NCBI RefSeq assembly: GCF_027947535.2
Contig: NZ_JAAGKO020000010.1
Location: 1 to 64,000 of the forward strand
DNA length: 64,000 nt
Direction: 5' to 3'
DNA from: Streptantibioticus silvisoli
GTDB taxonomy: Bacteria > Actinomycetota > Actinomycetes > Streptomycetales > Streptomycetaceae
A model generated the notes under the pieces. The model searched no databases, was not told the DNA's origin, and worked only from the letters and a program-made list of their open reading frames with translations. A program made the translations under genes and the position numbers. Positions 33,170 through 56,100 of this stretch are shown in pieces. Within the stretch, counting starts at the first letter, position 1. Each line of letters starts with the position of its first letter.

Positions 33170-34333
33170 ATGGACGCTGGGCTCAAGCGCGAACTTGAGG
33201 CGAAGGTCTACTCCGGCGAGAGGCTGTCCCGCGAGGACGGCATCGCGCTGTACGAGAGCGATGACCTGGCATGGCTGGGTGGCCTCGCGCACCACGTGCG
33301 GACGCAGAAGAACGGTGACGCGGTCCACTTCAACGTCAACCGCCACCTGAACATGACCAACGTGTGCACCGCGTCGTGCGCGTACTGCTCGTTCCAGCGC
33401 AAGCCGGGCGAGAAGGACGCGTACACCATGCGCATCGAGGAGGCCGTCCGGCTGGCCGAGACGATGGTCAGCGAGCACCTGTCGGAGCTGCACATCGTCA
33501 ACGGTCTGCACCCGACGCTGCCGTGGCGGTACTACCCGCGCAGCCTGCGGGCGCTGAAGGAGGCGCTGCCGAACGTCTCGCTGAAGGCGTTCACCGCCAC
33601 CGAGATCCACCACTTCGAGACCATCTCCGGGCTGACCGCCTCGGAGATCCTCGACGAGCTGATCGACGCCGGCCTGGAGTCGCTGACCGGCGGCGGCGCG
33701 GAGATCTTCGACTGGGAGGTGCGCCAGCACATCGTGGACCACCGCACCCACTGGGAGGACTGGTCCCGCATCCACCGGCTGGCGCACGAGAAGGGGCTCA
33801 AGACCCCCTGCACCATGCTGTACGGCCACATCGAGGAGCCCCGCCACCGCGTCGACCACGTGCTGCGGCTGCGGGAGTTGCAGGACGAGACCAACGGCTT
33901 CCAGGTCTTCATCCCGCTGCGCTACCAGCACGACTTCGTCGACATGAAGGACGGCAAGGTCCGCAACCGCCTCCAGGCCCGCACCACCATGGCCTCCGGC
34001 GCCGAGGCCCTGAAGACCTTCGCCGTCTCCCGGCTGCTGTTCGACAACGTGCCGCACGTCAAGGTCTTCTGGGTCATGCACGGCCTGGCCACCGCCCAGC
34101 TGGCGCTCAACCACGGCGCCGACGACATGGACGGCTCGGTCGTGGAGTACAAGATCACCCACGACGCCGACGACTTCGGCACCCCCAACAAGCTCACCCG
34201 CAACGACATCCTCGACCTCATCCGGGACGCCGGCTTCCGCCCGGTGGAGCGCAACACCCGCTACGAGATCCTCCGCGAGTTCCCCGGTCCCGACCTCGAG
34301 CGTCGCGAGGCTCCGCAGGCCATGCGGGTGTGA
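33170..34333 (+). CDS. mqnE: Aminodeoxyfutalosine synthase (radical SAM, MqnE)
   Basis: 387 aa. A radical-SAM enzyme that adds the adenosyl group to 3-[(1-carboxyvinyl)oxy]benzoate to give 6-amino-6-deoxyfutalosine. The cluster-binding motif is CTASCAYCSF (Cys66, Cys70, Cys73). MqnE-like stretches include NRHLNMTNVC, HIVNGLHPTLPWRYY and LYGHIEEPRHRVDH. The start at 33170 follows GAAGG and begins MDAGLKREL; longer upstream extensions lack domain content. It lies 62 nt after the ligase gene, so it is probably in the same transcript. With MqnA and MqnC at 37409-39568 and MqnD at 30822 it makes most of a naphthoate pathway; the hydrolase step (MqnB) is not in the window. Confidence 0.93.
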   Translation: MDAGLKRELEAKVYSGERLSREDGIALYESDDLAWLGGLAHHVRTQKNGDAVHFNVNRHLNMTNVCTASCAYCSFQRKPGEKDAYTMRIEEAVRLAETMVSEHLSELHIVNGLHPTLPWRYYPRSLRALKEALPNVSLKAFTATEIHHFETISGLTASEILDELIDAGLESLTGGGAEIFDWEVRQHIVDHRTHWEDWSRIHRLAHEKGLKTPCTMLYGHIEEPRHRVDHVLRLRELQDETNGFQVFIPLRYQHDFVDMKDGKVRNRLQARTTMASGAEALKTFAVSRLLFDNVPHVKVFWVMHGLATAQLALNHGADDMDGSVVEYKITHDADDFGTPNKLTRNDILDLIRDAGFRPVERNTRYEILREFPGPDLERREAPQAMRV

Positions 34334-34407: not shown

Positions 34408-38311
<3,904 letters not shown>

Positions 38312-38362
38312 GCCGACATGACCCGCACCACGTCACCGACATCTCCCGGAAAGGCCGGCACC

Positions 38363-39568
38363 ATGCCCCCTGTTCCCCTGTCCGAACTGCAGTCCGTGCT
38401 CGACCGTGCCGCCGCCGGAGGCCGGATCACCCCCGAAGAGGCGCTCGACCTGTACCGCTGGGCGCCGCTGCACGCGCTGGGCGTGGCGGCCGACACGATC
38501 CGCCGCCGCCGGTACGCCGGTACCGAGCACATCGCGACGTACATCATCGAGCGCAACATCAACTACACCAACGTGTGCGTCACGGCGTGCAAGTTCTGCG
38601 CCTTCTACGCCGCGCCGAAGGACACCGCCAAGGGCTGGACCCGCGACCTCGAGGACATCCTGCGCCGCTGCGCGGAGACCGTCGAGCTGGGCGGCACCCA
38701 GATCATGTTCCAGGGCGGCCACCACCCCGACTACGGCGTGGAGTACTACGAGAAGCACTTCTCCGCGATCAAGGAGGCCTACCCGCAGCTGGTCATCCAC
38801 TCGCTCGGCGCCTCCGAGGTCGAGCACATGGCCCGCATCTCCAAGGTGAGCGTCGAGGAGGCCATCAGCCGCATCCACGCCGCCGGCCTCGACTCGTTCG
38901 CCGGCGCCGGCGCGGAACTGCTGCCCGCCCGGCCCCGCAAGGCCATCGCGCCGCTGAAGGAGTCCGGCGAGCGCTGGCTGGAGATCATGGAGACCGCGCA
39001 CCGGCTGGGCGTGGAATCCACCACGACCATGCTGATGGGCACCGGTGAGACCAACGCCGAGCGCATCGAGCACCTGCGGATGATCCGCGACACCCAGGAC
39101 CGCTCCAGCGGCTTCCGCGCCTTCATCCCGTACACCTACCAGCCCGAGAACAACCACCTCAAGGGCCAGACCCACGCCACGTCGTTCGAGTACCTGCGGA
39201 TGATCGCGATCGCCCGCATCTTCCTCGACAACGTCGCCCACATCCAGGGCTCCTGGCTGACCACCGGCAAGGAGATCGGCCAGCTGTCGCTGCACTACGG
39301 CGCCGACGACCTCGGCTCGATCATGCTGGAGGAGAACGTCGTGTCCTCCGCCGGCGCCAAGCACCGCTCCAACCGCATGGAGATCATCAACCTCATCCGC
39401 AGCTCCGGCCGCGTGCCGGCGCAGCGCAACACCACCTACGAACACCTCCTGGTGCACGACGACCCGGCCAACGACCCGGTCGACGACCTGGTCGTCTCCC
39501 ACCTGTCCTCCACGGCCATCGAGGGCGGCACCGCGCACCCCGAGCTGAAGCTGCTCTCGGCGACCTGA
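38363..39568 (+). CDS. mqnC: Cyclic dehypoxanthine futalosine synthase (radical SAM, MqnC)
   Basis: 401 aa. It cyclises dehypoxanthine futalosine by radical SAM chemistry, giving the substrate of MqnD. The [4Fe-4S] motif is CVTACKFCAF (Cys72, Cys76, Cys79). Conserved blocks ERNINYTNVC, FQGGHHPDYGVEYY and YTYQPENNHLKG identify MqnC. The ATG at 38363 follows GGAAAGG at good spacing and gives the usual length; an upstream in-frame ATG at 38318 would add 15 unremarkable residues. Downstream is a strong hairpin, so the thioesterase-mqnA-mqnC unit likely ends here. Two radical-SAM futalosine enzymes within 6 kb of each other, inside a PKS cluster, is uncommon. Confidence 0.93.
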   Translation: MPPVPLSELQSVLDRAAAGGRITPEEALDLYRWAPLHALGVAADTIRRRRYAGTEHIATYIIERNINYTNVCVTACKFCAFYAAPKDTAKGWTRDLEDILRRCAETVELGGTQIMFQGGHHPDYGVEYYEKHFSAIKEAYPQLVIHSLGASEVEHMARISKVSVEEAISRIHAAGLDSFAGAGAELLPARPRKAIAPLKESGERWLEIMETAHRLGVESTTTMLMGTGETNAERIEHLRMIRDTQDRSSGFRAFIPYTYQPENNHLKGQTHATSFEYLRMIAIARIFLDNVAHIQGSWLTTGKEIGQLSLHYGADDLGSIMLEENVVSSAGAKHRSNRMEIINLIRSSGRVPAQRNTTYEHLLVHDDPANDPVDDLVVSHLSSTAIEGGTAHPELKLLSAT

Positions 39569-39619: not shown

Positions 39620-39703
39620 GGGTCGTTCCGGCGCCCCCGCACCCCGTCCGCGCGAGGGCGGGTGCGCCGGCACAACCCATCTCACGAACAGGACGGAGAA
39701 ACC

Positions 39704-40666
39704 ATGCCGGGCGCTATTCACGCCGAAGGTCTGGTGAAGGAATTCGGCAAGGTCACGGCGGTGGCCGGCGTCGACCTGGATGTCCCGGAAGGCCAGGTCC
39801 TCGGGCTGCTGGGGCCCAACGGCGCGGGAAAGACCACCACGGTCCGCCTGCTGACCACCTTGCTGCGCCCCACCTCCGGTACCGCCACGGTCGCCGGTCA
39901 CGACGTGGTGCGCTCGCCGGAGAAGGTGCGCCGCGCCATCGGCCTGTCCGGCCAGTTCGCCGCGGTCGACGACCGGCTGACCGGCCGGGAGAACCTGCGG
40001 ATGGTCGGGGAGCTGTACGGCATGCGGTCGCGCGCGGCGCGCGACCGCACCAGCGAACTGCTCGACCAGTTCGACCTGAACGGGGCCGCGGACCGCAGGT
40101 CGAGCACCTACTCCGGAGGCATGCGGCGCCGGCTGGACCTGGCCGCCGCGCTCGTGGTGCGCCCGTCGGTGATGTTCCTCGACGAGCCGTCGGCGGGCCT
40201 GGACCCCGGCAGCAGGCTGATGCTGTGGGAGGCGATCGAGAAGCTCGCCGCCGAGGGCACGACGCTGCTGCTGACCACGCAGTACCTGGAGGAGGCCGAC
40301 CGCCTCGCCGACAACATCGCCGTGGTGGACCGCGGACAGGTGATCGCGCGGGGAACGCCCGGCCAGCTGAAGGCCCAGACCGGTAACCAGAGCATCGAGA
40401 TGACGGTGCGCGACGTGGCCCGGATCGAGGACGCGACCTCGCTGCTGCTGCGGTTCGGCAAGGCCAAGCCCACAGTGGACGGCGACAGCGGCCGGCTGTC
40501 GGTGGCGGTGGACGGCGGCGCGAACCTGCTGTCCGAGGTGATCCACGAACTGGCCGCCACCGGCATCGAGATCGACGACATCGGGCTGCGCCGCCCGACC
40601 CTGGACGAGGTCTTCCTGTCCCTGACGGGCGGCACCCCCGCGAACAGCGACGAGGAGAAGCGATGA
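39704..40666 (+). CDS. ABC transporter ATP-binding protein (DrrA-like exporter)
   Basis: 320 aa nucleotide-binding subunit of a drug-export ABC transporter. It has Walker A GPNGAGKT (residues 37-44), a signature YSGGMRRRL near 138, Walker B VMFLDEPSAGLDP, and the DrrA-type C-terminal extension typical of antibiotic resistance exporters. ACGGAG precedes the ATG at 39704. Its stop overlaps the start of the permease gene by four bases (ATGA), indicating translational coupling. The likely role is export of the finished polyketide or self-resistance. Confidence 0.93.
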   Translation: MPGAIHAEGLVKEFGKVTAVAGVDLDVPEGQVLGLLGPNGAGKTTTVRLLTTLLRPTSGTATVAGHDVVRSPEKVRRAIGLSGQFAAVDDRLTGRENLRMVGELYGMRSRAARDRTSELLDQFDLNGAADRRSSTYSGGMRRRLDLAAALVVRPSVMFLDEPSAGLDPGSRLMLWEAIEKLAAEGTTLLLTTQYLEEADRLADNIAVVDRGQVIARGTPGQLKAQTGNQSIEMTVRDVARIEDATSLLLRFGKAKPTVDGDSGRLSVAVDGGANLLSEVIHELAATGIEIDDIGLRRPTLDEVFLSLTGGTPANSDEEKR

Positions 40667-41520
40667 CGGTGGCGGTGGCGCCGGAGCCGACGGCGCAGGA
40701 CGTCCTGGCGGCCGGGGGCACGCTCAAGTCCCTGCGCGACACCTGGGTGATCACGAAGCGCAACACGCTGCGCATGATGCGCATACCCGAGGCGCTGCTG
40801 CTGGGCATGGCCCAGCCGGTGGTGTTCGTGCTGCTCTTCGCCTACATCTTCGCGGGCACCTTCACCGTCCCGGGCGGCGGCGGGAGCATGGCGTACCGCG
40901 AGTACATGATGCCGGGCTTCTTCGCCCAGACCGTGGCGTTCGTGACGGCCGGCAACAGCAGCATCGGCATGGCCAACGACATCCAGCGCGGCATGGTGGA
41001 CCGGTTCCGCTCGCTGCCGATCTCCCGCGCGGCGCTGCTCAACGGGCGTGCGGCCGCCGACATCGTGCAGAACTGCCTGGTGATCGTCGTCATGGTCATC
41101 TGCGCGGTCGTCGTCGGCTGGCGCATCCACCGCGGCCTGGGGCACGCGATCCTGGGCTTCCTGCTGCTGCTGGTGCTGGGCTACGCCCTGTCGTGGGTCG
41201 GCGTGCTGATCGGCATGGCGGTGCGTACGCCCGAGGCGGCCGGCAGCGGCAACTTCCTGTGGCTGTTCCCGCTGACCTTCCTGTCGAACGCGTTCGTCAC
41301 CCCGTCGACGCTGCCGGCGGTCCTGCGGTTCGCCGCCGAGTGGAACCCGATCAGCGCGACCATCCAGGCGTGCCGCAACCAGTTCGGCAACCCCTCGCTG
41401 ATGCAGACCCACACCTTCCCGATGCTGCACCCCGCCCTGGTGTCGCTGCTGTGGTCGGTGGGCATCGCGGTGATCTGCCGGACGCTGGCGGTGCGCAAGT
41501 ACAGCTCGGTGGGCGCCTGA
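40663..41520 (+). CDS. ABC-2 type permease (DrrB-like exporter)
   Basis: 285 aa. The membrane partner of the preceding ATPase, with about six hydrophobic segments (for example VVFVLLFAYIFAG, AILGFLLLLVLGYAL and MLHPALVSLLWSVGIAV). MMPGFFAQTVAF and RFRSLPISRAA are typical ABC-2 permease stretches. The coupled ATGA overlap with the ATPase gene supports a two-subunit complex in the cytoplasmic membrane. The substrate is inferred to be the cluster's product. Confidence 0.92.
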   Translation: MTVAVAPEPTAQDVLAAGGTLKSLRDTWVITKRNTLRMMRIPEALLLGMAQPVVFVLLFAYIFAGTFTVPGGGGSMAYREYMMPGFFAQTVAFVTAGNSSIGMANDIQRGMVDRFRSLPISRAALLNGRAAADIVQNCLVIVVMVICAVVVGWRIHRGLGHAILGFLLLLVLGYALSWVGVLIGMAVRTPEAAGSGNFLWLFPLTFLSNAFVTPSTLPAVLRFAAEWNPISATIQACRNQFGNPSLMQTHTFPMLHPALVSLLWSVGIAVICRTLAVRKYSSVGA

Positions 41521-41746
41521 CACGGTGCCGGCGGTGCCGGTGCCGGGAGGTCGCCCACCTTCCGGCACCGGTGCCGCCGGCCCGGTGGCACACCGTCGCC
41601 GCGCGGGGCGCGGGGCCCGGCCGCCGTCCAGGACAGGCCCCGCGCGGACGTTGACCCGGCCGGTGCGGCCGCCGGTCCCGGCGCGGACCGTCCGTCACCG
41701 GCAGCCGTACCCGAGGTGATTGGACGTTGGAGGCGTGAGCCACGAG

Positions 41747-44700
41747 ATGCGCACCGAACTCATCCGGCCGCTGCACGAACTGATCGCGACGCATGCCGCC
41801 GAGCGACCGGACAAGACGGCCTACCACGACGCCCGTACGTCGGTGACGTACGGCGAACTCGCCGGGCGCACCGGGCGGCTGGCCGGACACCTGGCGGCCC
41901 TGGGGCTGGAGCGCGGGGCCCGCGCGGCGCTGTGCCTGGGCAACCGGGTGGAGATGGTGGAGAGCTACCTCGCCGTCACCCGGGCCGCCGCGGTGGGCGT
42001 GGCGATCAACCCGAACTGCTCGGACGACGAACTGGCCTACCTGCTGGACGACTGCTCGGCCGCCCTGGTGATCACCGACCGGGCCCGCGCCGACCAGGTC
42101 GCGCGGGTCGCCGGGGCCGGCGTCGGCGTGGTGGTCGTCGGACCGGACGAGCCCGCCGCGGGCCGGTGGCACTACGAGACGCTGGCGACCACCGAGCCGC
42201 CCGCCGCGCCGCGCGACGACCTGGGGCTGGACGAGCCGGCCTGGATGCTCTACACCTCCGGCACCACCGGATCGCCCAAGGGCGTGCCGTCGACCCAGCG
42301 CGGCTCGCTGTGGGCGACCGCCTCGTGCAACGCGCCCATCCTGGGCCTGTGCGAGGACGACCGGATGCTGTGGCCGATGCCGCTCTTCCACTGCGTGGCG
42401 CACAACCTGTGCGTGCTGGGTGTGCTGGCGGTCGGGGCGACCGCGCACATCATGGACGGGCTGGCGGCCGAGGAGATCCTGCGCACGGTGCGCGAGGAGC
42501 GTTCGACGTTCCTGGTCGGCGTTCCGACGATGTTCCACCACATGGTGGAGGCCGCGCTGGCCGGTGACGTGCCGGTGCACGACCTGCGGGTGTGCATGGT
42601 CGCCGGTTCGGCGTGCCCGGAACCGCTGCACGAGGCGTTCGCCGAGGCGTTCGGCATCTCGCTGCTGGACAGTTACGGCTCCACCGAGACCGGCGGGGCG
42701 ATCACCACGAACTGGCCGGCCCGGCCGCGCGTGCCCGGCTCCTGCGGGCTGCCGCTGCCCGGGCTGGAGCTGCGGCTGACCGACCCGGGGACCGGCCAGG
42801 AGGTGCCGCAGGGCGCGGAGGGCGAGATCTGGGTGGACAGCCCGGCGATGATGACCGGCTACCACGGCAAGCCCGCCGAGACCGCCGCCGTGATGTCCGA
42901 CGGCTGGTACCGCACCGGTGACCTGGCACGCCGGGACGCGGCCGGGTACATCAGCATCACCGGCCGGATCAAGGAACTGATCATCCGCGGCGGGGAGAAC
43001 ATCCACCCCGCGGAGGTGGAACGCGTGCTGGCCTCGGTGCCGGGGGTCGCGGAGGCCGCGGTGGGCGGCCGGGCGCACGACGCGCTCGGTGAGGTGCCGG
43101 TGGCCTACCTGGTGGCCGGCCCGGAGGGCATCGATGCGCAGCTGGTGCTGGAGACCTGCCGCGCCCGGCTGTCGTACTTCAAGATCCCCGACGAGCTGCT
43201 CCAGGTCGAGGCGATCCCGCGCACCGCGGCCGGGAAGATCGCCCGGCGCGAACTGGCGGGGCTGCCCGCCAGGTCGCTGGCGGTCAACCCGGTGACGGCC
43301 GCCCGGCCGCAGCAGGAGGGTCCGGCGCAGGGCGCGGACCACGCCACGCCGGCCATGCTCGGCGCGGTCGGGGCGCACCACCCGCTGCTGGGCGCGGTGG
43401 TGGACCTGCCGGACTCCGACGCGGTGGTCTTCACCGGCCGCCTGTCGGCGGACCGGCACGACTGGCTGGACGACTGCCTGGTGGCCGGTACCCGGGGGGT
43501 GCCCGGTTCCGTGCTCGTCGAACTGGCGGTCCGGGCCGGCGACGAGGTCGGGGCGGGACGCCTGGAGAACCTCGTGCCCGCCGAGCCGCTGGTGCTGCCG
43601 CCGTCCGGCGGTGTGCAGGTGCGGGTGACCGTGGGACCGGCCTGGGACACCGGGCGGCGGCCGCTCACCGTCCACTCGCGCGGCGACGGGGAGGTCAGCG
43701 GACGGCAGTGGATGTGCCACGCCAACGGCATCCTCGCCCCGGACACGGCGACCGCTGCGTGGGACGCGAGCGTGTGGCCCCCGGTCGACGCCGAGCCCCT
43801 ACCGCTGCCCGCCGACCCCGCGCAGCAGGCCGCGGCCGGCCACGGGCGGGTACGCGGGGTGTGGCGGCGCGGCGACGAGGTGTTCGCGGAGGTGGCGCTG
43901 GACGGCGAACGGGCCGGTGAGGGCGCCGCGTTCGGCCTGCACCCGCTGCTGCTGGACACCGCGATCCATCCGCTGCGGGCCGGACTGGCCGGCCCGGACG
44001 CCGGTACCGAGCCGGGCGCCTGGCGCGGGGTGTCGCTGCACGCGGCGGGCGCGGCGGTCCTGCGGGTGCGGATCACCCCGGCCGAGCAGGGCGCGGTACG
44101 GATCGAGACGGCGGACGCCACCGGCGTTCCGGTGCTGACGGTCGACTCGCTGGAGGCCCGGCCGGTCTCGCGGGCGCGGCTGCGGGTGGCGGGCGCGGCA
44201 CAGCAGGACGGCCTGTTCAGCGTGGAGTGGCAGGACGTGGACCTGCCGGCGCCGGCGGACCCGCGTCCGCAGCGCTGGGCGGTGGTGGGCGAGGACCCGT
44301 TGAAGGCCCGCGCGGGCCTGATGGCGGCCGGGCAGTACGCCGAGTCCTACCCCGACCTGGAAACGCTGGCGGCCCGGGCCGCGGCGGACTCGGTGCCGGA
44401 CGTGGTGGTCGTGACGTGCGCCCCGGACCCGGCCGCCGGCCAGGACGTCGCCGCGGTCACGCACCGCACGACCGGGCAGGCGCTGGGCTGGGCCCGTTCG
44501 TGGCTGACGAGCGCGGCGTTCGACGGTTCGCGGCTGGTGTTCCTGACCCGTGGCGCGGTGCCGGCCCCGGGCGACGGGCCGTCCCCGCTCCCGGCGGCCG
44601 GTGCCGTGTGGGGGCTGGTGCGGGCCGCGCAGAGCGAGGCACCGGGGCGTTTCGTACTGGTGGACTTCGAGGGCGGCAAGCCGGCCTGGCGTGCCGTGCG

Positions 44701-45901
44701 GCGTGCCCTCGGGTCGGGCGAGCCGCAGGTGGCGGTGCACGGCCGGACGGTGCGGGTGCCGGTCCTGGAACGTGAGTATCCGGCCGCTCCGGGCCCGCTG
44801 ACGCCGGCCCTGGACGGCGGCACGGTGCTGGTGGCCGGCGGCACGGGCCGGCTGGGCGCCCTGGTCGCCCGGCACCTGGTCGCCGAACGGGGCGCGCGCG
44901 ACCTGCTGCTGGTCAGCCGTCGCGGCCCGGACGCGCCGGGCGCCGGCGATCTGCGGACCGAACTGGCCGCGCTGGGCGCCCGGGTGACGGTGGCCGCCTG
45001 CGACGTGACGGACCGCGCCGCGCTGGCCGGGCTGCTGGAGCGGTTGCCCGCCGACCGGCCGCTGACGGCGGTGGTGCACGCCACCGGGGTGGCCGACGAC
45101 GGCATCCTGACCTCCCTGACGCCGGACCGGCTGTCCACCGCGACCCGCTCGGCGGTGGAGGGGCTGGCGGTGCTGCGCGAGGTGACGGCGGGTCTGGACC
45201 TTTCGGCGTTCTGGGTGTTCTGCACCGTCGCCGGGGTGCTGGGCAGCGCGGGGCGCGGCGCCCACGCGGCGGCCGGCGCGTTCGTCGACGCCTGGGCGCA
45301 CGGGTTGCGCGCCGAGGGCGTTGCGGCCCGCTGCGTGGCGCTGGGCCCGTGGGAGCCGGACGGCGCGGCACCGGCGGCGGACTCGCCGGAGCGGCGCCGG
45401 GCCCGGCGCGACGGGCTGTCGACCGTCACCGCCGAGCAGGGGCTGCTGCTGGTGGACGCCGCGTGGTCGACGGGGCTGGGCTCGGTGGTCGCCGCGCCGC
45501 TGGACTTCACCGCGCTGCGCGACCGGGCCCGGGCGGGAGAGGTTCCGACGCTGCTGCGCCGGCTGCTGCCCGCCGCCGCCCGCCGCCGCGCGTGCGACAC
45601 CCCGGCCGGGGCGCTGGACCTTCGGCAGCGGACCGCGGCGATGACCGAGGAGGAGCGGGACGCGGTTCTGCTCGATCTGGTGCGGTCCCAGGTGGCCGTC
45701 TCGCTCGGGTACGCGTCGGCGGAGGCGGTCGACGCGCAGCGCACCATGAAGGAGTTCGGCTTCGACTCGCTGACGGCGCTGACCGTCCGCAACGCACTGA
45801 ACGCGGCCACCGGCCTCACCCTGGCCCAGGCCGTGGTCTTCGACTTCGCGACGCCGGCCGCGCTCGCGCTGCACCTCAAGAGCGAGCTTCTCGCCCGCTG
45901 A
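41747..45901 (+). CDS. PKS loading protein: CoA-ligase/adenylation domain, dead DH, dead KR, ACP
   Basis: 1384 aa. The adenylation domain (1-515) is complete: YTSGTTGSPKG about 167, YGSTETGG about 309, YRTGDL about 387, GGENIHP, and the catalytic Lys of AAGKIARRE about 496. A DH-fold region (543-805) reads HDWLDDCLVAGTRGVPG, with Cys where the catalytic His belongs. The KR (from about 1030, GGTGRLG) has FCTVAG for FSSxAG and AHAAAG for the YAAAN motif, so Ser and Tyr are lost. The ACP has GFDSL about 1338. There is no KS or AT and no C-terminal docking tail after the ACP. It should activate a free carboxylic acid and load it on its own ACP. The start is uncertain: ATG 41747 is used; GTG 41735 and TTG 41720 are possible. 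The naphthoate made by the mqn genes is the obvious candidate substrate. Confidence 0.88.
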   Translation: MRTELIRPLHELIATHAAERPDKTAYHDARTSVTYGELAGRTGRLAGHLAALGLERGARAALCLGNRVEMVESYLAVTRAAAVGVAINPNCSDDELAYLLDDCSAALVITDRARADQVARVAGAGVGVVVVGPDEPAAGRWHYETLATTEPPAAPRDDLGLDEPAWMLYTSGTTGSPKGVPSTQRGSLWATASCNAPILGLCEDDRMLWPMPLFHCVAHNLCVLGVLAVGATAHIMDGLAAEEILRTVREERSTFLVGVPTMFHHMVEAALAGDVPVHDLRVCMVAGSACPEPLHEAFAEAFGISLLDSYGSTETGGAITTNWPARPRVPGSCGLPLPGLELRLTDPGTGQEVPQGAEGEIWVDSPAMMTGYHGKPAETAAVMSDGWYRTGDLARRDAAGYISITGRIKELIIRGGENIHPAEVERVLASVPGVAEAAVGGRAHDALGEVPVAYLVAGPEGIDAQLVLETCRARLSYFKIPDELLQVEAIPRTAAGKIARRELAGLPARSLAVNPVTAARPQQEGPAQGADHATPAMLGAVGAHHPLLGAVVDLPDSDAVVFTGRLSADRHDWLDDCLVAGTRGVPGSVLVELAVRAGDEVGAGRLENLVPAEPLVLPPSGGVQVRVTVGPAWDTGRRPLTVHSRGDGEVSGRQWMCHANGILAPDTATAAWDASVWPPVDAEPLPLPADPAQQAAAGHGRVRGVWRRGDEVFAEVALDGERAGEGAAFGLHPLLLDTAIHPLRAGLAGPDAGTEPGAWRGVSLHAAGAAVLRVRITPAEQGAVRIETADATGVPVLTVDSLEARPVSRARLRVAGAAQQDGLFSVEWQDVDLPAPADPRPQRWAVVGEDPLKARAGLMAAGQYAESYPDLETLAARAAADSVPDVVVVTCAPDPAAGQDVAAVTHRTTGQALGWARSWLTSAAFDGSRLVFLTRGAVPAPGDGPSPLPAAGAVWGLVRAAQSEAPGRFVLVDFEGGKPAWRAVRRALGSGEPQVAVHGRTVRVPVLEREYPAAPGPLTPALDGGTVLVAGGTGRLGALVARHLVAERGARDLLLVSRRGPDAPGAGDLRTELAALGARVTVAACDVTDRAALAGLLERLPADRPLTAVVHATGVADDGILTSLTPDRLSTATRSAVEGLAVLREVTAGLDLSAFWVFCTVAGVLGSAGRGAHAAAGAFVDAWAHGLRAEGVAARCVALGPWEPDGAAPAADSPERRRARRDGLSTVTAEQGLLLVDAAWSTGLGSVVAAPLDFTALRDRARAGEVPTLLRRLLPAAARRRACDTPAGALDLRQRTAAMTEEERDAVLLDLVRSQVAVSLGYASAEAVDAQRTMKEFGFDSLTALTVRNALNAATGLTLAQAVVFDFATPAALALHLKSELLAR

Positions 45902-45938: not shown

Positions 45939-46973
45939 ATGAAGGTCGACAACGTCCACATCAACTCGCTGGGGGTCGTGCTCCCCGAGTGGGCCAGCGC
46001 CGAGCAGGCCGTCGCCGACGGTCTGCTGGACGCGGAGATCATCAAGCTGAACGGGCTCACCGGGGCGCACATCGCCGGTGACGTCCCCGCGCTGGACATG
46101 GCGGTGACCGCGGCGCGCACGGCACTGGAGCGTTCCAAGCTCGACCCGGAGGAGATCGGCGCGCACATCCACAGCGCCGTGCACTACCAGGGGCCGGAGG
46201 CGTCGTACCCGCCCGGGTACATCCTGCGCGAGCTCGGGCTGCCGGTGATGCCGGCGTTCTACCTCCAGCAGGGCTGCAACGGCATGCTGGGTGCCCTGGA
46301 GGTGGCCATCGGGCAGATCACCGGGGCCGCGGAGGCGGAGGCGGTGCTGCTGACGACGGGGGAGAACTTCTCCGCGCCGGGGGTGGACCGCTGGAAGGGC
46401 TTCGGCCAGTCCTACATCTCCGGTGACGGCGCCGCCGCGGTGCTGGTCGGCGCCGAGGAGGGGTTCGCCCGGGTCCGCTCGCTCAACGCCGGTGTGCTGA
46501 ACGTGCTGGAGAAGTGGCACCGCGGCAACGGGCCGCTGCTGCTGCGCGACACGGGTGTGCCGACGCCGGGGATGCCGGAGCGCGCGACCCAGTTCAACGA
46601 GACGGAGATGTCGCTGTCGGAGACGCTGGACAAGGTCACCCGGTTCGGCCTGGACGTCATGCAGCGCTCGCTGGTCGACGCCGGCCTGAACGCCTCCGAC
46701 ATCGCGAAGGTCGTCTCGATCAACATGGACGGCCGGATGATCGAGTACTCGATCATGATGCCGCTGGGTCTGCCGATGTCCCGCTCGGCCTGGGACTTCG
46801 GCAAGTCGGTGGGCCACGTCGGCGGTGCCGACGTCTTCATCACCCTCGAACACCTGGTGCGCACCCGGGAGGTGGGACCGGGCGACAACGTCCTGCTGTT
46901 CTCCCAGGGGCCCGGCTGGATCTCCACCGCGGCCGTGGTGACCATCACCGACACCCCGCCCTGGGCGGTCTGA
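45939..46973 (+). CDS. KAS III-like acyltransferase (CerJ/DpsC type)
   Basis: 344 aa, thiolase fold related to FabH. The nucleophile is Cys113 in LQQGCNG. The usual FabH His motif HQANxRI is replaced by SINMDGR (261-266), and the Asn position of GNTSAAS reads GHVGGAD with His293 and Asp298. A Cys/His/Asp set instead of Cys/His/Asn is the hallmark of the CerJ/DpsC/ChlB group, which move acyl groups between carriers rather than condensing with malonyl-ACP. AGGAG precedes the ATG at 45939, only 37 nt after the loading protein, so the two are probably co-translated. Because the loading protein lacks a docking tail, shuttling its aryl group to the first PKS module is an attractive role, but other acyl transfers fit too. 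Confidence 0.85.
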   Translation: MKVDNVHINSLGVVLPEWASAEQAVADGLLDAEIIKLNGLTGAHIAGDVPALDMAVTAARTALERSKLDPEEIGAHIHSAVHYQGPEASYPPGYILRELGLPVMPAFYLQQGCNGMLGALEVAIGQITGAAEAEAVLLTTGENFSAPGVDRWKGFGQSYISGDGAAAVLVGAEEGFARVRSLNAGVLNVLEKWHRGNGPLLLRDTGVPTPGMPERATQFNETEMSLSETLDKVTRFGLDVMQRSLVDAGLNASDIAKVVSINMDGRMIEYSIMMPLGLPMSRSAWDFGKSVGHVGGADVFITLEHLVRTREVGPGDNVLLFSQGPGWISTAAVVTITDTPPWAV

Positions 46974-47152: not shown

Positions 47153-50100
47153 TCAGTTCCCGATGGTGGTGGCCAGCCAGTCGGCGGTGGCCGCGGCGGT
47201 GCCGCGGGCGTAGGCCTCCATCATCGTGAAGTGGTTGCCGGTCACGTCGATCACGGTGTTCGCCCGCTCCCAGGCCGCCTGCCACTCCTCGGGCTCCAGC
47301 ACCCCGATGATGTCGGCCGACAGCGGCGGCTCGGAGGAGCGCACCAGCAGCACCGGGCACGACAGCTCGCCCGGTTCCCACTCGCCGATCATGCTGACGT
47401 ACCAGCTCATGGCGGTCAGCCGGGCCGAGTCCATGTGCGCGAACATCGACTCCCGGTCGAACATCCCGCCGATCATCTCCTGGGAGAACCGCAGGAACGG
47501 GGAGTCGGCCCGCGGCATGTAGGTGTCCAGCAGGACCACCGCGGCCGGCGGCCGGCCCGCCTTCTGCAGGTGGCAGGCGGTCGCGAGGGCCAGGATGCCT
47601 CCGGAGGAGGAACCCAGCAGGACCACGGGCTCGTCCCCCACGCACCGGGCCACCGACTCCGCCTGGAGTTCGGCGACCGCGTCGAGCGACTCGGGCAGCA
47701 TCTGCCCGGCGCCGAAGCCCTGGGTGGGCATCGCCCACACGTCGCGCTCACCGCGGAAGGCGGAGGCGAACCGCGCGTACTGGTGAACGCCGGCCAGCGC
47801 CACGTAGGAGCTGAAGCACACCAGCGGGGCGACCCCGGCGGCGCCGGTGGTCAGCCGGATCGCCTCGGGGACGACGGGCAGTTCACCGGGGCTGCTGAAC
47901 CGCGGCCGCAGTTCGGCCGCCGCCTGCAGCAGGGTGAAGCCCTCGTCGACCTTGCCCGACTCGCACGCCTGCTTGAACAGGGCGCCCAGGGTGTCCTCGC
48001 CGCCGGAGCTGCTGGCCGGCACCCCCGCCTGCGCGCCGGCCGCGGCCGGGCCGGCCAGCAGCAGCTGGTCGACGTGGCCGGCCAGCGCGTGGGCGTCGGG
48101 GTAGTCGAACAGCACCGTCGGCGGCAGTTGCAGCCCGGTGACCGTGGCGAGCTGGTTGCGCAGTTCGACCGCGGTCAGCGAGTCGAAGCCCTGCTCGGTG
48201 AAGAGCCGGTCGGGCTCGACCGCGTCCGGCGAGGCGTGGCCCAGCACGGCGGCGGCCCGCTCGCGCACCAGGCCGACCAGCGTCTCGCGCCGCTTGTCCT
48301 GGTCCAGGCCGGCCAGCAGGGCCGGCAGGCCGCCCGCCGGGGCGAGCGCCCCGGCCGCGGCGCGGCGCGGGGCCGCGGCGGACGGGCGCAGCAGCGCGTC
48401 GATGGCGTGCCGCCCGGGCGCGGTGCCCATGGCGACCAGGGCCGACCGGTCGGCGACGGCGAGCGCCGCGTCGAACAGGTCGAGTCCCTCCTCGGCCGAC
48501 AGCGGGCGCATACCGCCGCGGGCCATCCGGCGCCGGTCGGTCTCGCCCAGTTTGCCGGTCATCGCGCCGCCGACGTCCCACGAACCCCACGCCAGGGAGG
48601 TCGCGGGCAGGCCGAGGCCGCGGCGCCTGGCGGCCAGGCCGTCGAGGAAGGCGTTGGCCGCGGCGTAGTTGGCCTGTCCCGGGGAGCCGAAGGAGCCGGC
48701 CACCGAGGAGAACAGGACGAACGCCGCCAGCGGCAGTCGCGCCGTCAGCTCGTGCAGCAGCCACGCCGCGTCGGCCTTGGGCCGCAGCACGCGGTCGAAG
48801 CGGGCGGCGTCCAGCGAGGTCACGGTGCCGTCGTCCAGGACGCCGGCGGCGTGCACGACCGCGCCGAGCGGGTGGTCGGCCGGTACCCGGGCCAGCAGCT
48901 GTTCGACGGCCGCGCGGTCGCCGACGTCGCAGGAGACCAGGTCCACCCGGGCCCCGGCGGCGGTCAGTTCGGCGACCAGGTCGGCGGCGCCGGGGGCGTC
49001 GGGCCCGCTGCGGCTGGTGAGCAGCAGGCTGCGCACCCGGTGGGCGTCGACCAGGCGCCGGGCGACGAGCCGGCCCAGCGCGCCGGTCGCGCCGGTGACC
49101 AGCACCGTCGCGCCGTCGGGCAGTGCCGGGGCGGGTTCGCCGGCCTCGGTGCGGGCCAGTCCCGGCAGCAGCAGGCGGCCGTCGCGGACCGCGGACTGCG
49201 GGTGCGCGGCGGCGACCGCGGCCAGCAGTCCCTGGTCGGAGGTCTCGGCGGCGTCGAGGTCGATGATCTGGAAGCGGTCGGGGTTCTCGGTCTGGGCGGC
49301 GCGGATCATGCCCCACAGCGCGGCGGAGGCCAGGTCCGCGACGTCCTCGTCGGGGACCGTGGCGATGGCCCGGCGGGTGACGAAGACCAGCCGCGAGCCG
49401 CTGAAGCGCTCGTCCTGGAGCCAGCCGCGGCAGATGTCGTGGCTGGCGGCCAGCAGGCCGCGCACGGCCCGCGGTACGGCCGAGCCGTCGCCGTCGCGCG
49501 CCTCGGGGGCGACCAGGACGACGTCGGGCATGGTCATGGCGGTGTCGACGGCCTTGCCCAGCGACTCCAGGTCGGCGTACGTCTCCAGGTGCACACCGGC
49601 CGCGTCCAGCGCGCCGGCCACCCGGTCGTCGCCCTCGCCCAGCACGATCCAGCGGACCGACTCCGGGGCGGGCACCGCGGTCGCGGCGGTCAGGGCGCGC
49701 CACTCCAGGTGGAGCAGGCTCTGCCCGGCCGCGGCCGCGCGGTCCGGCATCTGGTCGGCGGAGACCGCGCGCAGGGTCAGCGCGTCGGCGTAGGCGACCG
49801 GGGCGCCCTCGGGGTCGGTGACGAGCACGGAGAACCCGTTGGGGTGGCCGGCCGGGGCCAGGCGGACCCGCAGGTCGGTGGCGCCCCGGGCGTACAGCGA
49901 CAGGCCGTTCCACGCGAACGGGAGCATCGCCTCACCGGCCGGCTCCGCCTGCTGTCCGGCATCGGTGTCGGCGCCGGTGTCGGCGCCGGCGTTGACCAGC
50001 AGCGACTGGACGGCGGCGTCGAGCAGCGCGGGGTGCAGGGTGAAGCGGTCGGCCTCGGCGCGGTCGGGTTCGGGCAGGGCGACCTCGGCGAACAGTTCCT

Positions 50101-53100
50101 CGCCGCGCCGCCAGACGGTCCGCAGGCCCTGGAAGGCCGGGCCGTAGTCGAACCCGGCGGCGGCGAACAGCTCGTAGTGCGCGCCGTCGGTGACCTGCTG
50201 GGCGCCGGGCGGCGGCCATTCGGTCAGCCGCTCGGGCAGGGTGTCCGGCTGCGGGGCGAGGGTGCCCTGGGCGTGCCGTTCCCATGCGGCGTCGTCGTTC
50301 TCGGCCCGCGAGTGCACCGCGAAGGCGCGGCGGCCGTTGTCGTCGGCCGCTTCGACGACGAGCTGGATCTGCACGCCGCCGTCCTCGGGCAGCACCAGCG
50401 GGGTCTGGAGGGTGAGTTCGGCCAGGTGGCCGCAGCCGGCGCGGTCACCGGCGTGCACGGCCAGGTCGAGGTAACCGGTGGCGGGCAGGATGACCCGGCC
50501 CAGTACGGCGTGGTCGGCGAGCCAGGGGTGGGTGTGCACCGACAGCCGTCCGGTGTAGACGACGCTGTCGGACCCGGCGGGGCTCAGCGCCGCGCCGAGG
50601 AAGGGATGGCCGACGCGGTCGATGCCGACCGCTTCGAGGTCGCCGGCCCACGTCGCGCCCCGCAGCCAGTAGCGGTCGTGCTGGAAGGCGTAGGTGGGCA
50701 GCTCGACCTGCCGGGCGCCGGCGAACAGGATGCGCCAGTCGGGCGACAGGCCGTGCGTGTGCAGGGCGCCGACGGCGGTCAGCAGGCTGCGGACCTCCGG
50801 GGCGTCCTTGCGCAGGGCCGGCACCACCAGCGCCTCGTCGGCGTCGAGGCAGCCGCGGGCCATGGCGGTCAGCGTGGCGTCCGGTCCGGTCTCCAGCAGG
50901 CGGGTGACCCGCAGCTCGCGCAGGGTGCGCACCGCGTCGTGGAACCGCACGGTCGCCCGCACGTGGCCCACCCAGTACTCGGGGTCGGTCAGTTCCGCGG
51001 CGGTGGCCGCCCGGCCGGTGACGGAGGAGACGATGCCCAGCCGGGGCGGGGCGTAGCTCAGGCCGGCGGCGACCGCGCGGAACTCGTCGAGCATGGGTTC
51101 CATCAGCGGGGAGTGGAAGGCGTGGCTGACCCGCAGCCGGCTGGTCCGGCGCCCCAGGGCCTCGAAGTGGGCCGCGACGCGCAGGGCGGCCTGCTCGTCG
51201 CCGGAGACGACGGTCGCGGCGGGGCCGTTGAGCGCGGCGATGTCCACCGTGCCGTTCTCGGGCTCCAGCAGCGGGCGGACCTCGTCCTCGGAGGCCTGGA
51301 CGGCGACCATGGCGCCGCCGGACGGCAGGGCCTGCATCAGGCGGCCGCGGGCGGCGACCAGCGCGCAGGCGTCGTCCAGCGACAGCACGCCGGCGACGTG
51401 GGCGGCGGCGATCTCGCCGACGGAGTGGCCGGCCAGGTGGTCGGCGGTCACCCCCCACGACTCCAGGAGCCGGAAGAGGGCGACCTCGACCGCGAACAGC
51501 GCGGGCTGCGCGAACGCGGTGCGCTCCAGGGCGGCGGCGTCGGTGCCGAAGACCGTCTCGCGCAGTCCGTCGATGCGGGCGCAGACCGCGTCGAAGGTTT
51601 CGGCGTAGACCGGGAACGCCTCGTGCAGCGCGCGTCCCATGCCCAGCCGCTGGGCGCCCTGGCCGGTGAACAGGAAGGCGGTCCTGCCGCCCGTCCTGGC
51701 GGAGCCGACCGGGGTCTCGCGGGTGGGGTTGCCGTCGGCCAGGGTCCGCAGGCCGTCCATCAGGGCCACCCGGTCCTCGCCGAGCACGACGGCGCGGTGG
51801 TCCTGCAGGGAGCGGCCGGTGGCCAGCGTCAGGCCCACGTCGCGCGGGTCGAGCGCCGGCCGGTCGGTGAGGTGGTCCAGCAGGCGGCGGGCCTGGTCGC
51901 GCAGGGCCTGCGGGGTGCGGCCCGACAGCGGCCACGCCACGGTGCCTGCGGCCGCCGGCCGCGGTGAGGGGGCAGAGTCGGCGGGGGTTTCGGGAGCGGC
52001 CTCGGCGGGCGGCTCCTCCAGGATGAGGTGGGCGTTGGTGCCGCTGATGCCGAACGAGGAGACCGCGGCCCGTCGGGGGCGGTCCTCGCGCTGCGGCCAG
52101 GCGGAGTTCTCCGTCATCAGGCGCACCTGGCCGGCGTCCCAGTCGACGTGCGTGGAGGGGGCGTCGACGTGCAGGGTCCTGGGCAGCAGGCCGTGCCGCA
52201 TCGCCAGCAGGATCTTCATGACGCCGGCCACACCGGCGCCGGCCTGCGTGTGGCCGATGTTGGACTTCACCGAGCCGAGCAGCAGCGGCTGGTCCTGCGG
52301 CCGGTCCTGGCCGTAGGTGGCCAGCACCGCCTGCGCCTCGATGGGGTCGCCCAGCGTGGTGCCGGTGCCGTGGCCCTCGACGACGTCGACGTCCGCGGCC
52401 GCCAGGCCGGAGTTGGCCAGCGCCTGCCGGATGACCCGCTGCTGCGCGGGGCCGTTGGGGGCGCTCAGGCCGTTGGAGGCGCCGTCCTGGTTGACGGCGG
52501 AGCCGGCGATGACCGCGAGGACCGGGTGGCCGTTGCGGCGGGCGTCGGACAGCCGCTCCACCAGGAGCATGCCGCCGCCCTCGGAGAAGCCGGTGCCGTC
52601 GGCGGCGTCCGCGTAGGACTTGCAGCGGCCGTCGGCGGCCAGGCCGCGCTGCCGGCTGAAGTCCACGAACAGGCCGGGGGTGGACATGACGGTCAGGCCG
52701 CCGGCCAGCGCCAGGTCGCACTCCCCCAGCCGCAGCGACTGGGCCGCCAGGTGCAGGGCGACCAGCGAGGAGGAGCAGGCGGTGTCCACCGTGACGGCGG
52801 GGCCTTCGAGGCCGAAGGTGTAGGACAGCCGGCCCGACATCACGCTGGCGGAGTTGCCGGTGCCCAGGTGCGCGGTGGCGTCCTCCTGGCCGGGGGCCAG
52901 CGCGCGGGAGGAGTAGTCCTGGTAGTTGGTGCCGGCGAAGACGCCGGTGCGGCTGCCGCGCAGCAGCGCCGGGTCGATGCCGGCCCGTTCGAACGCCTCC
53001 CAGGAGATCTCCAGCAGCAGCCGCTGCTGGGGGTCCATCGCGGTCGCCTCACGCGGCGAGATCCCGAAGAAGCCGGGGTCGAAGTCGGCGACGCCGTCGA

Positions 53101-56100
53101 GGAAGCCGCCTTCGCGGGTGGAGGTCTTGCCGGGCAGACCCGGTTCGGGGTCGTAGAGGGCGTCGAGGTCCCACTCGCGGTCGGCGGGGAACGGGCCCAT
53201 CGCGTCGGCGCCGTCGTTCAGCAGCCGCCACAGGCCCTCGGGGGAGTCGATCCCGGCGGGGAAGCGGCAGCCCATGGCCACGATGGCGACCGGTTCGTCG
53301 TCGCGGCGCACGCTCACCACGGCGGGCGCGGCGGCGGTCGGCGTGCCGGCCGGGGCCAGGGTGGTGCGCAGGTGGTCGGCGAGGGCGAGGGGGGTGGGGT
53401 AGTCGTAGACGATGGTGGCGGGCAGCCGCAGGCCGGTGGCCTCGCCGAGGGTGTTGCGCAGCTCGACGGCGGTCAGCGAGTCGAAGCCCAGTTCGCGGAA
53501 GGCGCGGGTCGGCTCGACGTCGTCGGGGCTGGGGTGGTTGAGCACGTAGGCGATGTGCCCGCGCACCAGGTCGATCGCCGCCTGGCGCCGGTCGCCCTCG
53601 GCGAGCGCGGCGAACCGCTGCGCCAGGGTGGTCTCGTCGCGGGGCCGCTCGGCGTCGTCGCGGCGGGCTTCCAGCAGCCCGCGCAGCTCGGGCAGGTCGG
53701 CGTACAGGCGGCGGGGGCGGCCCTTGACCAGTTCGGGGCCGAAGACCTCCCAGTCGATGTCGGAGACGACCAGGGCGGGGTCGTCGTGGTCCAGGGCGCG
53801 CTGGAGGGCGTCCACGGCCGTGTCGGGGTCCATCAGGCGCACCCCGTGCCGTTCCAGCCGCTCACCGACGTTGCCGGTGGCCATGCCGCCGTCGGCCCAG
53901 CCGCTCCAGGCGATGGCGGTGGCCGGCAGGCCGCGGGAGCGGCGCACCTCGGCCAGCGCGTCCAGGAAGGCGTTGCCGGGCGCGTAGTTGCCGTGGCCGG
54001 GGCTGCCGAAGGTGCCGGAGGAGGAGGAGAACATCACGAACGCCGACAGGTCCAGGCCGGCGGTGGCCGCTTCGAGGTTGAGCGCGCCGCCGACCTTGAC
54101 CCGCAGCACCTGGGCGAGGCGTTCGGGGCTCAGGGAGGTGATGACGCCGTCGTCGAGGACGGCGGCGGTGTGGAAGACCGCGGTGAGCGGGCGGTCGGCG
54201 GGGATCGCGGCGACCAGGGCGGTGAGCGCGGCGGGGTCGGCGATGTCGCAGGCGGCCAGTTCCACCCGGGCGCCCAGGGCGGTCAGTTCGGCGCTCAGCT
54301 CGCCGGCGCCCGGCGCGTCGGCGCCGGACCTGCTGACCAGCAGCAGGTGGGGGGCGCCGGCCCGGGCGAGCCACCGGGCGACGTGCCGGCCCAGTGCGCC
54401 GGTGCCGCCGGTGACCAGCACCGTGCCGGTCGGGGTCCACACCGGGTCGGCGGACAGGTCGCCGGTCGCGGCGCGCTTCAGGCGCCGGCCCAGGACTCCG
54501 TTGGGGCGGATGGCGACCTGGTCCTCGTGGTCGCCGCGGGCCAGTACCGCCACCAGGCGGTCGGCGGCGGTGTCGTCCACCGTCTGCGGCAGGTCGGCCA
54601 GGCCGCCCCAGCGGTCGGCCTGTTCGAGGGCGACGACCCGGCCGAAGCCCCAGACGAGGGACTGCCAGGGGGCGTCGACCCCGGCGTCGGGCTGGACGGC
54701 CACCGCGCCGCGGGTGGTGAACCACACCGGGAGCTGTGCCGTCAGGTCGTCGAGGGCCTGGACCAGGGTCACCGTGGCGGCGAAGCCGCGTGGCAGGCCG
54801 GCGAGGGTGGTGTGCGGCGCGTCGTCCAGGGCGAGCAGCGAGATCACACCGCGGGCGTTGTCGTGCGCGCCGGCCAGCGCGGTGGCGAAGGCCGCGCGGT
54901 CGCCCTCGGGGTCCAGGGCGACGGTGACGGCCGAGGCGCCGGCCCGGGCGAGCGCGCCGAGCAGCGCGGTCGTGGCGGGGTCGCTCTCGTGGCTGCGCGG
55001 GACGACGACCAGCCAGGTGCCGGCGGCCGAGGGGGCCGGGCGTTCGTCGTCGAGCGGGCGCCAGACGATGCGGTAGCGCCAGGCGTCGGCGGCCGCGGTA
55101 CGCGCGGCGCGGCGGCGGTACTGGGTGAGGGCGGGGAGCAGCTGCGACAGGGCGGCCTCCTCCACGCCCAGCGCGGCGGCCAGCGTCCCGCTGTCCTCGC
55201 CCTCGACGGCCTGCCAGAACCCGGCGTCCGAGGAGCCGGCGGTGGCCGCCGCCGCGGTCGGCAGGGTGAACTCCGGCCAGTAGCGGCGCCGTTGGAAGGC
55301 GTAGACGGGCAGGTCGACGCGGCTGCCGCCGGCGTGCAGGGCCGCGGGCCAGTCGACGGGCACCCCGCGCACGGACAGCTCGCCGAGGGAGAGCAGGAAG
55401 CGCGCGGCTCCCCCGTTGTCCCTGCGCAGCGTGCCGACGACGGCCGCGTCGGTGACGTCGAGGGTGTCGAGGGTGTCGCGGATCGGGGCGGTCAGCACCG
55501 GGTGCGGGCCGACCTCGACGAAGGCGCGGTGTCCGGCGGCGCTCAGGGCGCGCACGGTTTCCTCCAGGCGCACCGGCCGGCGGGCGTTGTCGTACCAGTA
55601 GCCGGCGTCCAGCCCGGTGGTCTCCAGCGGGCCGGCGGTCACGGTGGAGAAGAACGGCACGTCGCCGGCGCGCGGGCGCACCGGGGCGAATCCGGCCATC
55701 AGCTCGTCGCGGACCTGTTCGACGTGGGCGCCGTGCGAGGCGAACGCGATGGCCACCCGGCGGGCCCTGACGCCTTCGCCGGTCAGCTGCTCCAGCAGCT
55801 CGGCGAGGTCGTCGGCGTCGCCCGAGACCACGACGGAGCGCGGGCCGTTGACGCCGCCGACCGACAGCCGGCCGGCGTGGCGCTCCAGCCGGGCCTCGAC
55901 CTCGGCGAGCGGCAGGGGTACGGAGATCATGCCGCCGCGGCCGGCCAGCGGGGCCAGGGCCAGGCCGCGGGCGACGACGAGGCGTGCGGCGTCCTCCAGG
56001 GTGAGGGCGCCCGCCACGTGGGCGGCGGCGATCTCGCCCTGGCTGGACCCGACGACGGCCGAGGGGCGCAGGCCGCAGGACTGCCACAGCCGGGCCAGCG

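Follow-up and report, generated by a model that had tools for sequence, protein, structure and literature searches.

The 64,000-nucleotide stretch analyzed here (positions 1 to 64,000 of contig NZ_JAAGKO020000010.1 of Streptantibioticus silvisoli, referred to as the window) encodes a protein composed of a coenzyme A ligase (CoL), a dehydratase (DH), a ketoreductase (KR) and an acyl carrier protein (ACP) domain (Table 1). This protein is, with good probability, a free-standing acyl carrier of the GonSL kind, loading a futalosine-type acid that a 3-oxoacyl-ACP synthase III (KASIII) would transfer to a sugar of the finished macrolide without chain extension. GonSL from the PM100117/118 cluster of Streptomyces caniferus is an acyl-CoA ligase-DH-KR-ACP protein with apparently active ligase and ACP but substituted KR and DH, listed immediately ahead of the KASIII GonS1 (PMC4763440). 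The window protein has the same domain order with intact ligase and ACP, substituted DH and KR, and an adjacent KASIII gene and futalosine genes. GonSL-type proteins were already described in 2016, and the window protein is most likely a further member rather than a puzzle of docking to a polyketide synthase (PKS).

The futalosine route to 1,4-dihydroxy-6-naphthoate is a known pathway, and dedicated futalosine genes of the cluster would supply this acid. The ligase would adenylate it or a close derivative, as its motifs permit, and load it onto its own C-terminal ACP. The ChlB3-like KASIII would take the acyl group from the ACP onto its own cysteine and pass it on, the most probable acceptor being a hydroxyl on a sugar of the completed macrolide, as gon and cyphomycin suggest. 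The acyl group would be attached without chain extension and perhaps unmethylated. The unextended naphthoate ester is a new prediction from the sequence and the least certain part of this proposal.

The ATG at 41747 was taken as the start codon; an in-frame GTG at 41735 directly after GGAGG is also possible and of no consequence for the interpretation. In the ligase, motifs A3, A5, A7 and A8 and the A10 lysine, K497, are intact, which agrees with its initial annotation as active. Among PDB sequences, those closest to it belong to malonyl-, fatty acyl-, succinylbenzoate- and benzoate-CoA ligases, which do not settle the substrate. The genome holds one ligase of this kind, the next best-scoring one sharing 35% identity with it. 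The ACP serine, S1341, is retained. The protein ends right after the ACP, as had been noted, and has no docking tail at its C-terminus: 43 residues follow the serine, compared with 120-131 in six of the seven main PKS proteins, the seventh of which carries a terminal thioesterase.

The DH and KR had been described as decayed, with Cys for His in the former and without Ser and Tyr in the latter, and alignment bears this out. Cys577 occupies the catalytic His position of the DH, and the Asp is retained. The KR keeps the NADPH motif GGTGRLG, and its losses extend to Lys and Asn: Lys is replaced by Ala1136, FSS by F-Cys-Thr (1159-1160), Tyr by His1173 and Asn by Gly1177. The 18 extension modules of the main macrolide PKS served as a control; one yielded no KR match, and Lys, Ser and Tyr are retained in all 17 recovered KRs. 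Because of this conservation, the losses in the window protein are not attributable to chance. Structure prediction, suggested in the initial annotation as a check of whether the folds persist, gave a model of low confidence (AlphaFold, aa 531-1384, DH-KR-ACP alone, mean predicted local distance difference test score (pLDDT) of 42). Near-full-length Pfam matches for PKS_DH_N and KR and PDB sequence matches of the DH-KR part, including 8g7w, 4ln9 and 3slk, suggest that both folds are preserved. Such dead domains would do no chemistry and would be left as a scaffold between ligase and ACP; by sequence they look like the remains of a lost extension module. The KR Tyr is present in all 11 aligned rows with a module, in two of which a contig ends within the module so that the ketosynthase-acyltransferase (KS-AT) part itself is not visible. 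It occurs in none of the six KS-AT-less rows that have a KR region, and five further rows are without any KR.

The KASIII gene starts 37 bases downstream of the ligase gene. Its best PDB match is ChlB3 (E 6e-65), with further matches to 9z38, 7vyu and CerJ (4e-51), followed by the condensing DpsC (5e-42). The catalytic triad is Cys113-His296-Asp301 in ChlB3 and Ser-His-His in DpsC (PMC9573744). C113, H293 and D298 of the window KASIII align with the ChlB3 triad and are invariant in all 10 rows examined (the window and nine relatives). With this triad at the ChlB3 positions and its closest similarity to ChlB3 and CerJ, the window KASIII groups with these enzymes and is most likely an acyltransferase that would need no docking domain. 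It is the only KASIII of this kind in the genome (next best 39% identity). The initial annotation had left unclear how the acyl group leaves a protein without a docking domain; the ChlB3-like KASIII is likely the answer, and if it performs the transfer the lack of a docking domain is therefore expected. No docking tail occurs in any of the 14 KASIII-coupled proteins measured, and seven further ones stop 2-16 residues past the ACP match. A model of the KASIII built from the 10-row alignment reached a pLDDT of 48. Elsewhere in the genome (C24:114129-122998), two more KASIII genes of the family (39% and 36%) have a distant ligase and a KS-AT-KR protein in their vicinity and perhaps mark another acyl-transfer cluster.

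CoA-ligase loading modules are common in PKSs, and the initial annotation saw the protein as a starter-loading module that would interact with the macrolide PKS without a docking domain. Some distant relatives are fused to a KS (CoL-KR-ACP-KS), and for another gon-like cluster it was proposed that the ligase-activated naphthoate goes to PKS modules (PMC6746918). A starter-loading role is nevertheless highly improbable here. A module of that type would be expected to be fused with the first extension module or to dock onto it, whereas the window protein is tail-less and the macrolide PKS, which ends with a thioesterase, begins with its own KSQ-AT-ACP loading module. Furthermore, mutants deleted in gonSL or gonS1 no longer make PM100117/118 and retain a glycosylated macrolide that lacks the naphthoquinone, and the six mutants described in that study accumulate glycosylated products of this kind (PMC4763440). 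In gon, the naphthoquinone is thus not formed without the ligase-ACP counterpart or the KASIII; together with the KSQ module, the knock-outs led to the rejection of starter loading.

By analogy with gon, the substrate of the window protein is likely a 1,4-dihydroxy-6-naphthoate-type acid. This acid had been put forward initially, and MqnE, MqnC and two MqnA/MqnD family genes in the cluster speak for it; which of the latter is MqnA and which MqnD is a tentative assignment by position. Since two further genes of this family lie on other contigs, the copies in the cluster look dedicated. Ten relatives carry an MqnC-DrrA-DrrB-ligase gene series together with the KASIII. The window starts at the end of its contig (C2), and the left end of contig C40 matches the genes left of the regulators in the clusters of the genomes G590 and G343, each of which is on one contig. 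This end carries a PF02458 transferase in addition to two P450s, a glycosyltransferase and sugar genes, and C2 has a 2,3-dehydratase and an rmlA-type gene. The gene set points to a glycosylated macrolide as the predicted product of the cluster. The stretch C40:1-12445 probably represents its other end, as the gene order is much as in G590 and G343 beside the regulators. No discrete ACP was found, all 20 ACPs in C2:1-130000 and C40:1-20000 being parts of PKS proteins or of the ligase protein.

The PF02458 gene (C40:11087-12445) offers a different route to the ester, in which the ligase releases free acyl-CoA, this BAHD-like acyltransferase attaches the acyl group, and ACP and KASIII are otherwise employed. 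The gene has relatives in G590 and G343, and in S. echinoruber a PF02458 gene lies upstream of the ligase gene (L022:384-1745). However, the ACP is fused to the ligase and strongly constrained in the pair G580/G590, and the visible part of the gon gene table contains no such enzyme (PMC4763440), which makes this route quite improbable. The PF02458 enzyme more likely forms malonyl half-esters. Such half-esters are often borne by related macrolides without naphthoquinone.

The absence of chain extension is predicted because neither a partner that could extend the chain nor a second KASIII of this kind turned up. In gon, the authors proposed that GonSL loads methylated 1,4-dihydroxy-6-naphthoate, which is extended by GonP8, and that KASIII enzymes may perform the transfers; the extending PKS GonP8 and a second KASIII, GonS2, are both needed (PMC4763440). 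Another gon mutant yields the free chromophore and its unextended precursor (PMC5103430). The window protein could act in the same way, its naphthoate being passed to a separate GonP8 equivalent that adds a methylmalonate unit before a second KASIII transfers it, with the partner missed in assembly gaps. Six relatives with a CoL-ACP-KS protein lend this some weight, as does the extended 2-methyl acid between naphthoquinone and sugar in cyphomycin (PMC6355912). It is nonetheless unlikely, since ligase and KASIII searches revealed one gene of each kind and no counterpart of GonP8 or GonS2 in the genome. In G590 and G343, the cluster is contiguous and syntenic and likewise holds one ligase and one KASIII, without a GonS2 counterpart and without a GonP8-like or KS-AT-bearing ligase protein. 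G343 and G580 each have one ligase match at 1e-120, and the second ligase match of G590 (54%, in a 2775-aa frame) lies far off on the chromosome. The absence of GonP8 and a second KASIII is regarded as variation at the cluster level, not as part of the definition of the loading protein. The acyl group may also be unmethylated, because two common methyltransferase families, searched in the genome for a GonMT counterpart (58 and 69 matches), have no member in the two contig parts of the cluster: C40 yielded none, and C2 one at 171 kb, outside the cluster.

With a cut-off of E<=1e-100, the KASIII turns up in 11 of 394 genomes of the family, including that of S. silvisoli; at E<=1e-90, 15 of the 392 genomes in the genus to which G343 belongs have it, and a named collection yielded five loci. 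Around its closer relatives the ligase protein takes four forms. The full-length protein (CoL-ACP-KS-AT-DH-KR-ACP) of S. echinoruber contains a single extension module, and those of G529, G009, G568 and G480 contain two; in S. monashensis start and end of such a protein are on separate contigs. The CoL-DH-KR-ACP form comprises the window protein and those of G580 and G590, and a form with an eroded KR (CoL-DH-KR remnant-ACP) occurs in G343 and S. cavernae. CoL-DH proteins without ACP are found in S. monashensis, G529 (with part of the KR), G009, G390, G568 and G480. In this last form, the A3 lysine is lost in four of six proteins and the A10 lysine in two. CoL-DH remnants with ligase active-site losses beside KASIII and PKS genes were located at L034:11386-13896, L036:6109-8688, L082:7062-9668 and L085:1583-4189 and give the appearance of ongoing gene death. 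More distant ligase relatives (L127, L128, L129 and L135; 54-58%) show the order CoL-ACP-KS, and in three of these four a KR-like segment separates the ligase from the ACP; the stretches examined there contain no match to the window KASIII.

The initial annotation envisaged an extension module in which KS-AT had been replaced by the ligase. Origin from an extension module is maintained, but a swap is improbable, as relatives hold the ligase and ACP-KS-AT in one protein. Because of these full-length relatives, loss of the middle ACP-KS-AT is probably the simpler path, a direction suggested by the sequences. In the ligase tree, G580 and G590 join the full-length proteins (100/99), the eroded-KR and ACP-less forms make up a group of their own (100/100), and the window protein branches from an unresolved fork. 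In the DH-KR-ACP tree, a single clade of KS-AT-less rows was rejected (approximately unbiased test, p 0.012), with long branches in play. The simplest reading of the trees is likely that ACP-KS-AT was lost more than once, although they leave the placement of the window protein unsettled. All six ACP-less ligase proteins belong to clusters in which an extending PKS is encoded next to the KASIII, and all four ACP-bearing ones in searched genomes or clusters (window, G580, G590, G343) lack an extending partner. A rule confining ACP loss to cases with an extending partner was considered and dropped, being broken by gon, which combines GonP8 with an ACP-bearing GonSL.

The reductive domains appear relaxed yet under purifying selection, which would fit a scaffold. 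The ratios of non-synonymous to synonymous substitution (dN/dS) were taken from G580 and G590, which share the architecture of the window protein, its own closest relative being too far diverged for such an analysis. Ligase and ACP give 0.22 and the KASIII 0.12, against 0.46 for the DH and, for the two KR parts, 0.59 and 0.45. Values for the full-length pair G480/G009 range from 0.10 to 0.41, with the KR of the second module at the top (0.41 and 0.37), and those for ligase and DH of the CoL-DH remnants rise to 0.49-0.71. The ACP-less CoL-DH proteins of six relatives, with their lysine losses, invite the idea that the window protein is a dying, functionless relic as well. Given its retained ligase motifs and ACP serine, and a genome without another ligase of this kind, this is hardly to be expected. 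More tentatively, and with somewhat less than even probability, the proteins of the window, G580, G590, G343 and probably S. cavernae may be collapsed aryl-primed modules that repeatedly lost ACP-KS-AT. They would have exchanged an extended naphthoquinone acyl group for unextended 1,4-dihydroxy-6-naphthoate, moved directly onto the macrolide sugar by one KASIII, with the dead DH-KR kept as a scaffold needed by ligase and ACP. If so, their products would form a distinct subgroup of naphthoquinone macrolides. The graded relatives document in nature how a PKS module collapses into a loading carrier and can help to address why dead DH and KR domains are retained.

Several observations weigh against the interpretation as a non-extending carrier with a retained scaffold. 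DH decay does not track KS-AT loss, because the DH His is missing from every one of the six last modules in full-length relatives, and two of the 11 KS-AT-less proteins (G580 and G590) still have it. The dN/dS values come from a single pair of that architecture, and the second-module KR of a full-length pair, at 0.37-0.41, is not far below. The predicted models of the KASIII (pLDDT 48) and DH-KR-ACP (pLDDT 42) are both of low confidence. Kinship with GonSL is judged from domain order, decay and neighbors as described for gon, rather than from an alignment with the gon records LN997801 and LN997802. Gon pairs its ligase protein with GonP8 and a second KASIII, all of them needed, and its authors did not propose a single hand-over to the sugar. 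The proposal in PMC6746918 is nearer to starter loading; as far as visible it is annotation and not experiment. The genome is a draft (130 contigs, 98% complete), and an extending partner could sit in a gap. Substrate, product and activity in S. silvisoli are predictions.

Table 1. Positions of the ligase protein, its domains and neighboring genes in the window
Feature	Position	Strand	Basis
CoA ligase-DH-KR-ACP protein, 1384 aa	41747..45901	+	Open reading frame and domain search
CoA ligase (adenylation) domain, aa 15-497	41789..43237	+	AMP-binding (aa 15-373) and AMP-binding_C (aa 423-497); core motifs and K497 intact; PDB matches are acyl-/aryl-CoA ligases
DH domain, aa 545-811	43379..44179	+	Domain match by two models; Cys577 in place of catalytic His
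KR structural (SpnB-type Rossmann) subdomain, aa 832-1001	44240..44749	+	Domain match (SpnB_Rossmann)
KR catalytic subdomain, aa 1025-1203	44819..45355	+	NADPH motif present; Lys/Ser/Tyr/Asn gone
ACP, aa 1312-1377	45680..45877	+	PP-binding match; S1341 present; protein stops 7 aa further on
KASIII-like acyltransferase	45939..46973	+	Best PDB match ChlB3; C113, H293, D298 present
MqnA/MqnD family gene (VitK2_biosynth), taken as MqnD	30822..31682	-	Family match
MqnE, aminofutalosine synthase	33170..34333	+	Match above curated cut-off
4Fe-4S ferredoxin, likewise adjacent to MqnE in relatives	34408..34701	+	Domain match
Discrete thioesterase	36567..37334	+	Counterparts in G590 and G343
MqnA/MqnD family gene (VitK2_biosynth), taken as MqnA	37409..38311	+	Family match
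MqnC, cyclic dehypoxanthinyl futalosine synthase	38318..39568	+	Match above curated cut-off
ABC exporter genes, DrrA-type (above cut-off) and DrrB-like (below cut-off)	39662..41520	+	Profile match
Last main PKS protein, two modules and C-terminal thioesterase	47153..58012	-	Domain search

Two further genes of the window were noted. An EhpF-like adenylating enzyme (32028-33107, forward strand; PDB match to EhpF, E 1.8e-43, no Pfam match) is encoded between the MqnD-type gene and MqnE and possibly provides a second step on the aryl acid. None of nine relatives with the same kind of cluster has a match to it at E 1e-20; a 56% relative adjoins a ligase-like frame in G509 (L132:8295-9380). The protein encoded at 34798-35748 on the reverse strand has a weak patatin-type match (below cut-off) and reads as a discrete acyltransferase with GTGTG replacing GHSxG; it has no PDB match and no match in the stretches of G590 and G343.

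Among known systems, gon is closest to the window cluster. Both have a CoA ligase-DH-KR-ACP protein with active-looking ligase and ACP and substituted DH and KR, followed by a gene for a KASIII. Both also share genes of the MqnA, C, D and E type, a ferredoxin, a thioesterase and a KSQ-primed macrolide PKS; GonSL has 1107 aa compared with 1384 aa in the window protein. The loss of the naphthoquinone weakens cytotoxicity in gon (PMC4763440), and compounds related to it are antifungal (PMC6746918, PMC6355912). In cyphomycin, a related macrolide, the naphthoquinone acid is present as an ester on a sugar (PMC6355912). This menaquinone-like acid parallels the predicted product but differs in being methylated and extended by a 2-methyl three-carbon unit; quinolidomicin was also considered as a product lead and then dropped. 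The S. echinoruber protein (2425 aa) shares 66% identity with the window protein in the ligase, 54% in the DH, 57% in the catalytic KR and 56% in the ACP, and 73% in the adjacent KASIII. It has likewise lost the DH His, but judged by its ACP-KS-AT in the middle and its intact KR it would be expected to lengthen the acid by one unit. ChlB3 and CerJ are the closest solved structures to the window KASIII by sequence and share the Cys-His-Asp triad and, as predicted for it, acyl transfer by a KASIII fold. ChlB3 transfers 6-methylsalicylate from ACP to ACP and CerJ transfers malonate to a sugar (PMC9573744), whereas the cargo of the window KASIII is probably naphthoate. Read in this way, the odd ligase protein becomes a testable step in how a menaquinone precursor is diverted and joined to a macrolide.

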